From: Pseudomonadota bacterium
GTDB lineage: Bacteria; Pseudomonadota; Gammaproteobacteria; Acidiferrobacterales; Acidiferrobacteraceae
Direction: 5' to 3'
Assembly: GCA_021816625.1 (NCBI GenBank)
Contig: JAKAXM010000003.1
Location: 1 to 64,000, forward strand
Length of the DNA: 64,000 nucleotides
A program made the translations under genes and the position numbers. Shown here piece after piece: positions 39,729-45,855 of this stretch. The notes beneath the pieces were generated by a model. It did not search any database. It had not been told where the DNA came from and worked only from the letters and a program-made list of their open reading frames with translations. Numbering within the stretch: position 1 is the first letter of the stretch; every line of letters starts with the position of its first letter.

Positions 39729-40280
39729 CTGTCGCGGTTTACGGTCCGCAAGGCGAGGCTCCATATAGCCGATATCGATCGCGGTTACTACGCCGATCAC
39801 GCCCTGACGCTCGCGCAACACCCCTCGGAGACCGATGAACGGGTCATGGTGCGTTTGCTCGCGTTCATCCGCCACGCAGATCCGGGGCTGGTTTTGGGTG
39901 CCGGTGTAGGCGATACCGGCGAACCGGATCTCGCCATCAAGGATCTGACCGGCGCCATGCGGCTTTCCATTGACGTCGGCTTGCCCGATTGGCGGCGCGT
40001 CAAGAAGAGTGTGCTGCGGACCCGCGAGCATGTCGTCTATACCTACGGCGGGCGCGCCGCCACATCTTGGTGGAAACTCGCGGCCGAGCCCCTTGCGGCC
40101 TGCCCGAATCTCACCGTCATGGCCGTGCCCGATGCGACGCTCGCCGCGATGGCTGCCCTCATCGAGCGCAGCATGGAGTTCGACTGCATGGTCCAGGATG
40201 GTGAGCTACGGCTTACGGCAGGGACAAGATCCGTTTCGGCCGATATCGTTTCCTGGCAGACTGTCACGAACCTGCCATAA
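39729..40280 (+). CDS. yaeQ: YaeQ family protein, probable CTG start
   Basis: The frame encodes YaeQ from its very N-terminus: (L)SRFTVRKARLHIADIDR, YYADHALTLAQHPSETDERVMVRLLAFIRHA, and the PD-(D/E)XK-like core with IKDLTGAMRLSIDVGLPDWRRVKKS. No ATG, GTG or TTG exists in frame before ATG 39846, which would delete about 39 conserved residues. CTG 39729 lies 7 nt after GAGGA and gives 183 residues, against 181 for E. coli YaeQ. An ATG at 39679 is in another frame and would need a -1 shift at the T5 run (39724-39728). YaeQ function is unsettled; a nuclease-like fold is reported. Confidence 0.82.
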   Translation: MSRFTVRKARLHIADIDRGYYADHALTLAQHPSETDERVMVRLLAFIRHADPGLVLGAGVGDTGEPDLAIKDLTGAMRLSIDVGLPDWRRVKKSVLRTREHVVYTYGGRAATSWWKLAAEPLAACPNLTVMAVPDATLAAMAALIERSMEFDCMVQDGELRLTAGTRSVSADIVSWQTVTNLP

Positions 40281-40351
40281 GGCACGGGTACTCTGCTGCT
40301 CGGCCCTTAGGCGGCCGCAAACCCCGTGCCCATGCTGTAGTAAGGAGAGTA

Positions 40352-40810
40352 ATGAGATTCACCCATTTTATGACCGCCGTCCTCGTCTCCCTTCCCCTCG
40401 TGGCCGCTGTTGCTCCGCGCGCCTTAGCGGAGACACGCATTCAGTCAGACATCGCTTATCGAAAAGATTTGATGTTTGCCATGGACTGGAATCTTGTGCG
40501 CATTGCCCAAATGGTACGTCACCAGCGGCCCCTTGACCGTAACCGATTGGCCTACGAAGGTCGTGCCCTGGCCGCGCTAGGGGTTCTGCCGTGGACGGCC
40601 TTCGTTCCGGGCTCGGATTATGGCCAGACCAAGGCCAAGCCGCTTATTTGGCAACAAGGCCAGGCCTTTCAGAAGGCGGTTCTGTCTTTTGAAGCAGCGA
40701 CCCGCGCTCTCCAGGCCGCAACCGCTCAAGGCCGCCTTAGCGCGGTGGCTCATCCGCTCGAAGAGGTCGCGCGCGGCTGTCATTCCTGCCATCACCGTTT
40801 CATGAAGTAG
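40352..40810 (+). CDS. Cytochrome c' family protein
   Basis: This 152-residue periplasmic haem protein has an N-terminal signal peptide ending ALA (cut at about residue 26). A four-helix-bundle-type body follows, with the haem site C143-H-S-C146-H147 five residues from the C-terminus, the classic cytochrome c' placement. Cytochromes c' bind NO and CO, and some take part in electron transfer. The conserved region around residues 35-60 starts with DIAYRKDLMFAMDWNL. A strong AAGGAGAG site precedes the ATG. It converges with a cytochrome b561 gene, a frequent functional partner. Confidence 0.88.
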   Translation: MRFTHFMTAVLVSLPLVAAVAPRALAETRIQSDIAYRKDLMFAMDWNLVRIAQMVRHQRPLDRNRLAYEGRALAALGVLPWTAFVPGSDYGQTKAKPLIWQQGQAFQKAVLSFEAATRALQAATAQGRLSAVAHPLEEVARGCHSCHHRFMK

Positions 40811-40987: not shown

Positions 40988-41683
40988 TTAGGCGGTCACT
41001 ACGAGCCAGGTTGCCAGCACAGAGGCGAGCGCCACGAGCCCTGCGAGCCAGAGACGCGCAAAAAACGGCGCGGGTCTTGGCGCGGGCGCCGGCAGATCCG
41101 CGTGGCCGGTGAGCATGGGCTTTACGAGATCGTGTTTCCCTATGACCCGGTGCGCGATGATAGCCAATATATGGATGCCGACAAGTCCGAGGATGAGATC
41201 AAAATTGAGTTTATGGATGTGCGTCAGGAGGTCCCCTGTCCGATTGCGTACGAATCGATTCAAGGGACCTGCGGTCAATATGTCGTCGGTCGCAAATAAG
41301 CCGGTCCCCACCTGCACGGACAACACGAGCAGAAAAGCCATCACCGACCAGCCTCCCAAGGGATTGTGTCCCAAGCGCCAGCGTGTGTCCTTGCCCGCCG
41401 ACCGCAGGTATTGCCATACGCGGCGCGGCGAAGCGACAAAGGATGAGAAGCGTGCCGTCTCGCTACCTATGAGCCCCCATAGCAAACGAAATACGAGCAG
41501 GGCCAACACCGCGTAACCGCCCCACATGTGGTAGACGAGAAAGCGCTGGCCCAAATGACTCGATGCCCATTCCCATCCGATAAGGAGCACGAGTAGCCAA
41601 TGAAACAAGCGCGTCGGGAGATCCCAGACGCGGACGGTTTCTGTGATTAGGCCCTGGTTTTTCCCGCACGCATCATCGCCCAT
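40988..41683 (-). CDS. Bacterial cytochrome b561 / Ni,Fe-hydrogenase-type cytochrome b
   Basis: This 231-residue membrane protein has four main helices and His residues placed for two haems b: PTRLFHWLLVLLIGWEW, VYHMWGGYAVLALLVFRLLWGLIGSETARF, and THIHKLNFDLILGLVGIHILAIIAHRVIGK. The GSETARFSSFV loop is typical of B561_bact proteins that pass electrons between quinone and periplasmic c-type cytochromes. A fifth hydrophobic C-terminal segment is present. The start at 41683 follows GAGAGGG; the longer frame (to 41743) has no homology. Its natural partner would be the convergent cytochrome c'. Confidence 0.88.
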   Translation of the reverse strand: MGDDACGKNQGLITETVRVWDLPTRLFHWLLVLLIGWEWASSHLGQRFLVYHMWGGYAVLALLVFRLLWGLIGSETARFSSFVASPRRVWQYLRSAGKDTRWRLGHNPLGGWSVMAFLLVLSVQVGTGLFATDDILTAGPLNRFVRNRTGDLLTHIHKLNFDLILGLVGIHILAIIAHRVIGKHDLVKPMLTGHADLPAPAPRPAPFFARLWLAGLVALASVLATWLVVTA

Positions 41684-41808
41684 CCCAACCCTCTCAATCG
41701 CAACAAATTGTTGACACGGATGCCCCGAAAACCCGCCGATCATACGGCATATGTCGTAACCATGTAAGTTCTCTTAAACCCTTCATAAACGCATATTCTA
41801 CCGCCCCC

Positions 41809-41826
41809 ATGTCACAAATCTGTCAT
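41809..41826 (+). promoter_or_regulatory. Pho-box-like PhoB site upstream of the TonB receptor
   Basis: Two 7-bp direct repeats, ATGTCAC (41809-41815) and CTGTCAT (41820-41826), are separated by AAAT and offset by exactly 11 bp. This is the architecture of the PhoB consensus CTGTCAT-N4-CTGTCAT (5/7 and 7/7 matches). It lies 92 bp before the receptor start. A candidate -10 (TCATAT, 41845-41850) is about 8 bp further away than in E. coli phoA, so activity is uncertain. Confidence 0.55.
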
Positions 41827-41917
41827 CAGGACACACCTTTGGCGTCATATGTCTCAGGCAGAGTCCGCTTCGCAAAAGTTCCTGATTCGATAAAAAATAG
41901 CGGAGGTAATATACGTC

Positions 41918-44287
41918 ATGTCCCGTAACGTTCAGATCCCCATGCCCGCGCTTAGGCCGGCGGTGCTCGTGGCATCCTGCGTCATGTGCGCCATTGCCAG
42001 CATGTCGGTGGCACGCGCGGCGGTGAATGTCGGTACTGTAAGTGCACAAAGCGCCAAGAAGAACCGGGAGCTGCTGAAAGCGACCAATAGCAAACTTACG
42101 AAAAAGCAGATTCTAAAGGCCACACAGACAGAGCGCGTCATAAGCCGTCGGGAGATTAATGCCAATGGTCCGGCCGCCGGTGCTGCGCAGGCGCTTGCTC
42201 TGGCCCCGGGCATCGCGGTCCGCGGTTACGGCGGCATCAGTGGGTCGGCGCGTTACGAGATTGCCGTTCGCGGGGTAAAGGTGGGGTGGTCCAGCGTCAA
42301 CGGCGACGTCGAGCGCAACGGGATAACGGTACTGTTCGATGGCGTCCCGATGAATAACCTCATATCGCATAACGGCGGCTGGGATTCGAACGAGATCCCG
42401 ATCATGCAGCTCATCTCGGGCGTGAACGTGATCTACGGACCCGGCAACCCCGATACCCGGTGGTTCGATAGTGTCGGCGGGACCGTGAACTTCGTGCCCG
42501 TGCAGCCGACCGAAAAAGCCAACGCAGACATTGGTCTTACGTATGGCAGTGACCAGACCGAGGGCGCCAATCTCATCGTAAATACCGGGACCCACGGCGG
42601 CTGGTCCACGGTCGTGGCGGGCGGCTTTAGCCGCAACAATACCTTCCGTACGGGTTCGTTTTCTGCGCCCAGCCGTTCCTCGGCCCTGTTCGCCAAGACG
42701 GTAAAAACCTTTTCGGCAGGTTCTTTGAGCATCGGCGGCTATGCCGACGATACGACTGAGTTCCGTCCGAACTTTATTCCGGTAAACCCCATCCCGGCGG
42801 GACCCAACGGCAGCGCCATTACGGTGGACGGGACCGCCAACACCCCTTTGTATAGTCAGTCTACGACCGGCTACTACTCTTCCTTGCCGGAGGATGTGTG
42901 GTTCAAGCAGATCGTGGTGCGCGATCGCATGCTTTACTCGAAATTGAACCTGGACATCGCCCCCGACCTCACCATGCACGATATGGTCTGGTACCGGCAT
43001 GGGCATCGCGTGCATTGGCGCGTGGATAATTATAATTACAACGGCGCCCCGCCCGGCACGGTCAATTCCGAGTACTACAATCCGCGTTCTGATACCTACG
43101 GAAACCGCGTGAGTTTTGACTGGGCCTTGCCTATGGACCTCGTCAAGGCGGGCGCGTCGTGGATCAACCAGACCTACTCGACCCCGTATACGGGCTACAA
43201 CGAGACCTACGGGACGAGCCCGGCCAATCCCGTTCAGTACAACAACGATACGCTGACCAACACCTATCTCACGGGCTTCGTGCAAGACGCGATATCGCCT
43301 ATCAAGTCCTTTACGATTACGCCCGGTATAGCCGCCGTTGATTTTCAGACGCAGTTTTTCAATAACGGCGCAAGCTATACGCCGCCTGGTGCTACCAATC
43401 AGACGGTCGCCCCGAGCGATAGCAAGGTGTTTACGAGGCTCGAGCCGTCGGTCGGTGCGGTCTTTAGGGTAACGCCGCATTGGTCGCTCTACGGCAATGG
43501 CGCCGAGACCTACCAGAACCCGGGGGACAACGCCTTTGGGGCCTACAGCGGCAGCAACGCCATAAACCTGGGGAGCCTAAAGCCCGTCAAGAGCGTGGAC
43601 TATGAACTCGGAACGCGCTTCCTTCTTCGTCATGCCGGTCTTTTGCGGCATTTCGTGATGAACGCGGATGTGTACCGGGACCGTCTCAGCAATGAAACCT
43701 TGGCGACCTACATATCGACCGGGGGCAATTTCGCGACCACCGAGTTTGCCTCGGCTAGCGCCACCTATCAGGGGCTCAATGTCAGTGCCCAGGATAGTCC
43801 CAGCTGGCACTGGCATGTGTTTGGCAACGTGGCCGTGACACGGGCGCATTTCGATTCGTATGTGCCAAGCGGCAGCACGCAAAACTACGCCGGCTACCCG
43901 GTCTCCTACAGCCCGGACTTGACGGCGGCCTTGGGGCTCAATTATCGGGTGGCATTCGGCAGCTACCTGGTATCCCCGGGGGTATCCGACCAATACACGG
44001 GGTCGCAGTACCTCTTTAGCAACGTCGCCAATGCGCCGACCAATAACGTTCAGATGCCGTCTTATAACATCGTGAACACCCAGGTCGCTGTAAAGGCGGG
44101 CACCGACGTCTTCGGGCTGTCGTCTGTCACGGTGACCGTGGGTATCACCAACCTTCTGAATAAGCGCTATGACCCCATCGAGTACCTAACGAGCGGGGGT
44201 TACTTTGGCGGGAACAGCGCCGGGGCCGTGCTCGCCGACCCAGGCGCGCCGCGTCAATACTTCATCAACCTAAACGCGCGCTTCTAA
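41918..44287 (+). CDS. TonB-dependent outer membrane receptor
   Basis: This 789-residue protein has a signal peptide (cut at about residue 34), a possible TonB box (VNVGTVSAQ, about 37-45), a Lys-rich linker (about 46-75), a plug domain (about 75-195; ERVISRREINANG, FDGVPMNN, VIYGPGNPDTRWFDSVGGTVNF) and a 22-strand-type barrel ending ...APRQYFINLNARF with terminal Phe. The LNKRYDP block near the C-terminus is standard. No Fur box was seen upstream; the Pho-box-like repeat suggests phosphate-starvation control and an organophosphate or metal-phosphate ligand. Substrate is unproven. No TonB/ExbBD or ABC genes are adjacent. Confidence 0.9.
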   Translation: MSRNVQIPMPALRPAVLVASCVMCAIASMSVARAAVNVGTVSAQSAKKNRELLKATNSKLTKKQILKATQTERVISRREINANGPAAGAAQALALAPGIAVRGYGGISGSARYEIAVRGVKVGWSSVNGDVERNGITVLFDGVPMNNLISHNGGWDSNEIPIMQLISGVNVIYGPGNPDTRWFDSVGGTVNFVPVQPTEKANADIGLTYGSDQTEGANLIVNTGTHGGWSTVVAGGFSRNNTFRTGSFSAPSRSSALFAKTVKTFSAGSLSIGGYADDTTEFRPNFIPVNPIPAGPNGSAITVDGTANTPLYSQSTTGYYSSLPEDVWFKQIVVRDRMLYSKLNLDIAPDLTMHDMVWYRHGHRVHWRVDNYNYNGAPPGTVNSEYYNPRSDTYGNRVSFDWALPMDLVKAGASWINQTYSTPYTGYNETYGTSPANPVQYNNDTLTNTYLTGFVQDAISPIKSFTITPGIAAVDFQTQFFNNGASYTPPGATNQTVAPSDSKVFTRLEPSVGAVFRVTPHWSLYGNGAETYQNPGDNAFGAYSGSNAINLGSLKPVKSVDYELGTRFLLRHAGLLRHFVMNADVYRDRLSNETLATYISTGGNFATTEFASASATYQGLNVSAQDSPSWHWHVFGNVAVTRAHFDSYVPSGSTQNYAGYPVSYSPDLTAALGLNYRVAFGSYLVSPGVSDQYTGSQYLFSNVANAPTNNVQMPSYNIVNTQVAVKAGTDVFGLSSVTVTVGITNLLNKRYDPIEYLTSGGYFGGNSAGAVLADPGAPRQYFINLNARF

Positions 44288-44349: not shown

Positions 44350-44670
44350 TTACTTATCCAATCTGGGCGTAAAGAGTACGCAGTACCCCATCGGGCTTAT
44401 GCGGCCAGCCACCTTAACGCAATGCCCCATGGCCATCGTGCCGGTGGGTTTCAGGCCCTGCATCATCATACCGTTGGAGTGGCCGACGGCCGGCAGAAAG
44501 AAGCGGCACATCCCGCACATGTCGTGCCCTTTGGGGTGGTCCTGGTAGTGCACGATCACCTTGGCAAGCCGCAAAGTGGCGGCTCGCGCTACCGTGACGC
44601 CAGGTAGCGCACAGCCTGCGGTGGTTAGCATAGTCCTCAGGAAACGACGCCGAGAAAGCGGATTTTTCAT
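44350..44670 (-). CDS. Tat-exported high-potential iron-sulfur protein (HiPIP)
   Basis: This 106-residue protein starts with a twin-arginine signal (SRRRFLRTML, cut at about ARA, residue 30). Four Cys bind one [4Fe-4S] cluster: C52-G-M-C55-RFF, C84, and C97-VLFTP, matching the HiPIP pattern C-x2-C...C...C. Classical HiPIPs have about 14 residues between Cys2 and Cys3; here there are 28, including a Met-rich stretch (NGMMMQGL...TMAMGH). HiPIPs carry electrons in the periplasm, and the iron oxidase Iro of acidithiobacilli belongs to the family. AGGAG precedes the ATG. The EEP gene lies 62 bp upstream on the same strand. Confidence 0.87.
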   Translation of the reverse strand: MKNPLSRRRFLRTMLTTAGCALPGVTVARAATLRLAKVIVHYQDHPKGHDMCGMCRFFLPAVGHSNGMMMQGLKPTGTMAMGHCVKVAGRISPMGYCVLFTPRLDK

Positions 44671-44732
44671 AGCCTGATCTCCTGTGATCGAACGGTACGG
44701 TCCGATGTCGGTCGGAGGGACCCCTGCATCTA

Positions 44733-45458
44733 TCAAGACGCCGCGCGAACACCTAAGGTCAACAGGTAGGCCTTGTGGTCAGACAGCGGCGGCCCGTCGT
44801 TGGGTGCCGGGCGGGCATCGAGGATGCGCTGGGGCGCGACCCCGTTTACAAAGATATAATCGATCCGGGTCTGAGGATTATCGGCAGGAAAGGTGGGGCC
44901 GGGGGGCCTCGGGCTTGCGGCATGGCTGTCGAGCCACGCCGACTGAGTGAGGACGCGGATGCCGGCGGCATCCGGGGGGGCGTTGAAATCGCCGGCCAGG
45001 CATTGGGGGCCCGGAAAGACGCTTAACGCCCGGGCAAGCGCTGCTGTCTGCGCGTGGTTCTGGTTAGGAACCCAGGAGCAGTGGACGTTTGTGAATTGCC
45101 AGACCTCGCCCTGCCAGGCGAAGGTCGCGCCCATGGCTCGCCGGAAGGAGGGGTCTTCGTCACTGTCTGTGCGGGGCAGTGCGTAGGACCAGGGGGCGCT
45201 CAAGGGTATGCGCGATAGGATGGCGCAGCCGCGCTCCGGTTCGGACTCACGCGCCGCCATGAAAAGCTTGTGGGGGTAATCCAGCCTCTCCGCCAATTCC
45301 CGGGCCTGGTCGCAATCGGGCCGGGCGCACACCGCTTGCAAGGCGACGAGTTGGGGATGTTCGTCTCGTAACAGTGCCACGATGCGCTCGCGGCGCAGGT
45401 CCCATGACCCAAAGCCATCCTGGTCGTAATTGAGATTGAGCGTGAGGATCTTCAACAT
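44733..45458 (-). CDS. Endonuclease/exonuclease/phosphatase (EEP) family protein with altered active site
   Basis: This 241-residue protein has the EEP (DNase I-like) fold motifs: TLNLNYDQDG at the start (Asn10), TNVHCSW (about 126), AGDFNAPPDA (156-159), TRIDYIFVNG (about 197-205) and LSDHKAYL (226-228). The usual metal-binding Glu of the LQEV motif is Ala42 here (ALQAVCARPDC), so catalysis may be lost or altered. ATG 45458 fits the fold start; the longer frame to 45785 adds low-complexity, non-homologous residues. No signal peptide is visible. HiPIP lies downstream. Confidence 0.8.
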   Translation of the reverse strand: MLKILTLNLNYDQDGFGSWDLRRERIVALLRDEHPQLVALQAVCARPDCDQARELAERLDYPHKLFMAARESEPERGCAILSRIPLSAPWSYALPRTDSDEDPSFRRAMGATFAWQGEVWQFTNVHCSWVPNQNHAQTAALARALSVFPGPQCLAGDFNAPPDAAGIRVLTQSAWLDSHAASPRPPGPTFPADNPQTRIDYIFVNGVAPQRILDARPAPNDGPPLSDHKAYLLTLGVRAAS

Positions 45459-45855
45459 ACACGGAGTGTAGGGAGGGAGCGTCGCGCCTGCTATCCGACC
45501 CCGGTATGGGTCCTGCGCTTGGTGCGCGGCTGGCGATGGCCTCTCGCCCGAGGCCCGCTGGGCGGCGGCACATCTCCTGGGGGTCGATGTGGCACGGCTG
45601 TGCGGGGATGCCGGGCGCGCGTGACCGGGCCTAAGCGCAGGTCTTGACTTTTTTGGTCGGGCACACACCGAGATCCGGCGCGTGCAGTCCAGGTACGCCC
45701 TTTGGTATTCGACGCAATGGTTGCGGTCTGCCCTGCCGCGAATCAGGATTGAGTGGCAGTCGTCCCGTGTCGTGATGTCCGGCAAAAGGGAGGCCGCGAG
45801 GTGCGGGACTCAAGCCAACGGCAGAGGGGGGTTGGCCGCTTGCCTAGTGAGATGA
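45459..45855. other. Gene-poor stretch between the EEP gene and initiator tRNA
   Basis: About 400 bp without a supported gene. Minus-strand frames of 60 and about 110 codons cross it; one is Cys-containing but lacks a ribosome site, a recognisable motif and a usual start. No repeat, terminator or operator stood out. It should contain the 3' processing/termination region of the tRNA and the promoter of the EEP-HiPIP pair. Confidence 0.5.

Follow-up and report, generated by a model that had tools for sequence, protein, structure and literature searches.

A predicted four-repeat Pho promoter before a TonB-dependent receptor gene and the exbB-exbD-tonB operon of an Acidiferrobacteraceae bacterium

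In iron-oxidising acidophiles, TonB receptors are commonly taken for iron importers, and the Acidiferrobacteraceae live where ferric iron can scavenge phosphate. The locus described here raises the question of whether such a receptor gene might answer to phosphate, and what its product might carry. The window, meaning the whole stretch of DNA analysed (64,000 nt), belongs to a 2.19-Mb assembly of 52 contigs that is 99% complete and labelled G000. The features around the receptor gene are as follows.

40261..40294, forward strand: second predicted Pho promoter, CTGTCAC GAAC CTGCCAT N10 TACTCT, before the cytochrome c′ gene
40352..40810, forward strand: cytochrome c′ (PF01322, by Pfam)
40988..41743, reverse strand: cytochrome b561-type protein (PF01292), encoded divergently from the receptor gene
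41809..41815, forward strand: Pho repeat R1, ATGTCAC
41820..41826, forward strand: Pho repeat R2, CTGTCAT, which with R1 makes a perfect distal Pho box
41831..41837, forward strand: degenerate in-phase repeat R3, ACACACC, with 1/6 matches
41842..41848, forward strand: Pho repeat R4, GCGTCAT, in the −35 position and kept in orthologues
41859..41864, forward strand: −10-like hexamer CAGAGT, 10 nt 3′ of R4, a spacing as at pstS in 8 genomes
41918..44287, forward strand: TonB-dependent receptor of 789 aa, plug and barrel (PF07715 and PF00593 over cut-off)
44733-45785, other strand from the receptor: endonuclease/exonuclease/phosphatase-family ORF

A Pho box stands in place of the −35 element, about 10 nt before the −10. 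The conventions for the box and the −10 were partly taken from excerpts of two papers (PMC4971064, PMC11208175). The repeat ATGTCAC-AAAT-CTGTCAT, which the original prediction had placed upstream of a TonB receptor with an 11-bp period, was found at 41809-41826 on the forward strand, 91 nt 5′ of the receptor ATG (41918), and the receptor upstream carries 7-4-7 direct repeats with an 11-bp period that are near CTGTCAY. The R1 and R2 pair forms the distal half of a four-repeat array in 11-bp phase, in which R4 takes the place of the −35 element, with a gap of exactly 10 nt to CAGAGT, a weak −10 hexamer lying 53 nt 5′ of the receptor ATG. The −10 spacing had earlier been called non-canonical because the gap had been measured from R2; measured from R4 it is canonical, since pstS has 10 nt too, being preceded in 8/8 genomes by the same box, 10 nt and TAGNCT.

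The motif is short, and together with the supposedly non-canonical spacing this might favour a chance match in an intergenic region, a reading that we regard as barely credible. The box at 41809-41826 is the only match without mismatches to NTGTCAYNNNNCTGTCAY (TGTCAY-N5-TGTCAY-type) in the 2.19-Mb genome, and at up to two mismatches the genome holds 83 matches, against 30 for the reversed pattern. Among the 38 window ORFs that span 200 aa or more and have 300 bp upstream, the receptor upstream scored 12/12 and was the sole one above 9/12, with the others ranging from 7 to 9. Dinucleotide shuffles of 12 orthologous upstreams never reached 12 (0/3600), and roughly 3.5% of the 300-bp upstreams scored at least 10 once shuffled. 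The training set of a 17-position matrix comprised 13 distinct promoters of pstS, MFS phosphate-symporter-like and porin genes, with no receptor, exbB or cytochrome promoter among them; this matrix placed the receptor box 1st of 127,968 window positions, with a score of 17.9 (training range 17.5-24.8). Counting against the box, a 33-position two-repeat matrix ranked the receptor sites only 106th and 740th in the window, which is to be expected if the receptor array has four repeats.

The four-repeat layout (joint score ≥17/20) was present in 10/13 orthologous receptor upstreams, with the remaining three scoring 16, 15 and 14 of 20, and before exbB-exbD-tonB in 18/18 orthologues (≥64% identity), counts that overstate independence because the species are related. 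Paralogous exbB genes and shuffles served as controls: the layout occurred in 0/7 paralogous exbB (54-57% identity, scores ≤12), and the best of 6500 shuffles reached 15 in the joint score out of 20. Left out of the receptor count were L087/L049, whose upstream is cut by the contig end, L090/L059, a partial gene without upstream, L112, a partial gene with a best score of 7/12, and the Acidithiobacillus relatives L088, L089 and L101 (53-57% identity), in whose upstreams no clear box was seen. In two more distant species, L055 and L056 (the same contigs as L083 and L084), further in-phase repeats were read by eye in the upstreams. The receptor paralogue at C42 of G000 also has an in-phase array, with its best pair with a −10 at 12/14, and its relatives reach 13/14 (L066, L073, L180 and L181) or 12/14 (L182); paralogue B of G000 has only weaker sites, the one ahead of the receptor scoring 9 and the one ahead of the regulator gene upstream of it 12. 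In G009 (L060, G009:C2:994136-996470) the orthologous receptor gene is split into three frames, and its promoter array is intact. As the perfect box is unique in the genome, the phase and spacing of the array are kept across species and the layout is missing before all seven paralogous exbB genes, the chance occurrence that the original prediction had allowed for is rejected, and on these sequence comparisons the box at 41809-41826 is not due to chance.

The operon behind the second array contains ExbB and TonB, recognised by MotA_ExbB and TonB_C, and an ExbD frame read by eye. The remaining ExbB-like genes of G000 belong to two clusters, one Lol/MsbA-like and one Tol-like (ORFs read by eye), and a further TonB_C gene has pyrB/pyrR- and PilG/PilH-like genes nearby (by eye), so that the Pho-boxed operon is the only exbB-exbD-tonB operon seen in G000. 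Three TonB plug domains were detected in G000, all of the window receptor's family. Among six other genomes, plug domains number 2-3 per genome in G004, G008, G010, G014 and G016, each at a place that the receptor query found too, and 8 in G005.

The original prediction would not stand in a genome devoid of phoB; here, the profile search detected PhoB above its curated cut-off, and beside phoB lie PhoR (PF11808), so that both partners occur in one genome, PhoU, a PstB-like ATPase (ABC_tran by Pfam) and an OprD-type porin. Elsewhere in G000 are pstS and two PstC/PstA-like permease ORFs, the permeases being read by eye, and the core pst genes share the motif. A transposase-like ORF (IS110-like by eye; L039 7186-8175) was observed between the porin-pstB-phoU and phoR-phoB sides of the pho cluster. 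A genome scan for other Pho boxes, with the grammar TGTCAY N5 TGTCAY N11 A N3 T and at most one mismatch, gave six matches in G000 and none when reversed. Five of these precede OprD-pstB-phoU, exbB, an MFS symporter-like gene, pstS and the cytochrome c′ gene, and the sixth, which faces a long ORF encoded on the complementary strand, is probably due to chance. At this threshold the two-repeat grammar does not list the receptor, whose array has four repeats. The MFS gene encodes 483 aa, its start resembles a phosphate-symporter-like protein of A. ferrianus (L101; best match TIGR00887, below cut-off), and its box recurs in G005, G002 and G013.

Another OmpR-family regulator, such as the orphan Trans_reg_C protein beside receptor paralogue B, might use the array in place of PhoB. 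Such an orphan precedes paralogue B in G000 and has a relative in G010, a 117-aa Trans_reg_C protein precedes the Acidithiobacillus relative in L088, and a second response regulator scored 185.5 bits against the PhoB model. However, the repeats and their spacing recur before pstS and OprD-pstB-phoU, no PhoB other than that of the pho cluster passes the cut-off, and the comparison of DNA-binding domains with solved PhoB gave 4.9e-43 for PhoB and 3.3e-8 for the orphan, leaving this alternative very improbable. Receptor paralogues are also adjoined by a protein of 271-276 aa (L169 4543-5358, reverse strand; L171 7379-8209) that has an OmpR-type DNA-binding domain but lacks any recognised receiver domain, and in G000 it lies directly before paralogue B. 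The motif, its spacing, its conservation and its occurrence at the pst genes can be read from the DNA itself. With PhoB, PhoR, PhoU and Pst present, the same box at pstS and the array conserved, the proposed phosphate-starvation control of outer membrane uptake is supported; we infer that PhoB would bind the array and induce from it, and consider PhoB control of the array highly probable.

The receptor might instead be an iron receptor of the siderophore or ferric-citrate type, on which phosphate control would be at most an overlay, with phosphate as an iron chelator as in Osorio et al. 2008. TIGR01783, the TonB-dependent siderophore receptor family, was its only NCBIfam match, but its 102.4 bits are below the cut-off of 223.5, and the protein is not assigned to that family. 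The receptor model (pLDDT 84.6) has a TonB-receptor fold, and Foldseek gave query TM values of up to 0.70 to solved receptors, the nearest being Fiu, PqqU, FecA and FhuA. Though FecA, FhuA and Fiu among these would suit iron, PqqU and also YncD were matched, so the fold does not fix the ligand, and a ligand call from this mixed set was dropped. Osorio et al. further linked acidophile TonB receptors having ExbBD-TonB and phosphatases with phosphate-chelation iron uptake, in the excerpted text (PMC2631029).

The original prediction had also reported no visible Fur box, and this held in the window receptor upstream, where the best Fur-like match was 9/19 against a shuffle mean of 10.5 in a scan that used a consensus and no positive-control promoter. 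Fur control was rejected after the 19-bp consensus was scanned over 13 receptor and 18 exbB upstreams, with nothing above the shuffles apart from L085, which equals its shuffle maximum (14/19); L147 and L150 equal theirs (11). As the receptor control elements also match those of the pst genes, an iron receptor is judged unlikely, and the phosphate-controlled reading suggests that the importer gathers phosphorus, not iron as its family name implies.

Several neighbours touch on the ligand, which is likely to contain phosphorus. A PF04185 phosphoesterase lies beside related receptors in G010 and G015, a related receptor in L102 adjoins a phosphocholine-PLC-like gene, paralogue C of G000 has an exopolyphosphatase-like gene nearby (both genes below the full-length cut-off), and the Acidithiobacillus YTS05 relative precedes phnG-H-I-J C-P lyase genes. 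For G000 a phosphonate ligand used through C-P lyase was rejected, as PhnJ was absent in 14/14 Acidiferrobacteraceae genomes with the E. coli control detected. In G000 the genes directly beside the receptor include no recognised phosphatase gene, and a Pho-boxed secreted phosphatase was dismissed in the same genome: for the propeller-phosphoesterase-like gene (C23) no good box was found, the best site, at 11/14, having imperfections in both repeats. In L106 (7399-10332), with propeller matches, and in L258 (2439-5312), long proteins carry a PF04185 phosphoesterase region at the C-terminus; the one in L106 adjoins a related receptor, and both may be counterparts of what Osorio et al. 2008 called 'surface layer proteins'.

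The receptor gene is also flanked by genes for redox proteins. Ten species have a b561 gene flanking it, 8 of them in divergent orientation and 2 on the downstream side, with minus-strand Pho scores of 9-11 of 14 for the divergent gene (3 upstreams), and cytochrome c′ lies beyond b561 in 7 species. The cytochrome c′ box scored 12-13/14 in 5/5 species having the gene and a usable upstream; phosphate control of a cytochrome is unexpected. A HiPIP-like protein (44350-44736, reverse strand), resembling the Iro iron oxidase with 47.5 bits against a cut-off of 100, is encoded 3′ of the receptor, and a HiPIP-like gene occurs near the receptor in 7/16 compared loci. Because b561 and the Pho-boxed cytochrome c′ flank the receptor, one may speculate that it imports Fe(III)-phosphate as a phosphorus source, with the only exbB-exbD-tonB operon turned over to phosphorus and with cytochrome c′ and b561 reducing the iron and so freeing phosphate in the periplasm; we hold this version to be improbable.

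Our preferred reading, in which a PhoB-activated promoter drives a TonB module (the receptor and exbB-exbD-tonB) for a phosphorus-containing ligand, is probable with good confidence. Once phosphorylated by PhoR under phosphate starvation, PhoB would occupy the four-repeat array as dimers, R4, the last repeat, replacing the −35 element, and would recruit sigma-70 RNA polymerase to CAGAGT and turn on the TonB receptor. PhoB would simultaneously activate exbB-exbD-tonB, the pstS-pstC-pstA-like genes, the OprD-like porin with pstB-phoU and the MFS phosphate-symporter-like gene, and because it would turn on both, the receptor and its energy source would rise together. The receptor's ligand, to be carried into the periplasm, would be an organophosphate, condensed phosphate or ferric phosphate. 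Should phosphate control hold for both the receptors and the complex that energises them, part of the iron-importer annotation would need revision. The analysis also offers a concrete predicted Pho regulon for the Acidiferrobacteraceae. Were the reading true, the iron-phosphate crosstalk proposed for acidophiles in 2008 (PMC2631029) would become directly testable.

In those excerpts, Osorio et al. 2008 described FecA3/FecA9 clusters of Acidithiobacillus and Leptospirillum with ExbBD-TonB, PhoD/AcpA, SLP and PhoB-like regulators and proposed phosphate-chelation iron uptake in acidithiobacilli and leptospirilla (PMC2631029). The present locus is like these clusters in linking acidophile TonB receptors and ExbBD-TonB with phosphate-metabolism genes; however, those clusters were read as iron uptake with phosphate as the chelator, whereas the promoter here points to phosphate control. 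The term 'pho box' has 0 occurrences in the main text of that paper, and in the literature searched no paper combined Acidithiobacillus with 'Pho box'.

A second comparison comes from an alphaproteobacterium, Caulobacter crescentus. According to the excerpted account, its PhoB controls various TonB receptors thought to import phosphate-containing compounds (PMC11208175), and the present receptor resembles them in its predicted PhoB control but differs in having ExbB-ExbD-TonB and a four-repeat array, neither of which is mentioned in those excerpts. In the PUMA3 system of Pseudomonas aeruginosa (vreAIR; phdA-pdtB-exbB2D2-tonB4), PhoB and sigma-VreI drive an operon containing exbB2D2-tonB4, as described in excerpts of PMC4971064. 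Both systems have an exbB-exbD-tonB set with a pho box, and that of PUMA3 is driven in low phosphate with PhoB. However, the PUMA3 promoter additionally depends on the ECF factor sigma-VreI and on a −35 of its own, whereas here the last Pho repeat is in the −35 position, and VreA has no barrel, whereas here a full receptor lies under the array. PhoB-controlled TonB parts are thus already known in other bacteria, and what appears new is an acidophile whose TonB receptor and only exbB-exbD-tonB operon both have a conserved, predicted four-repeat Pho promoter.
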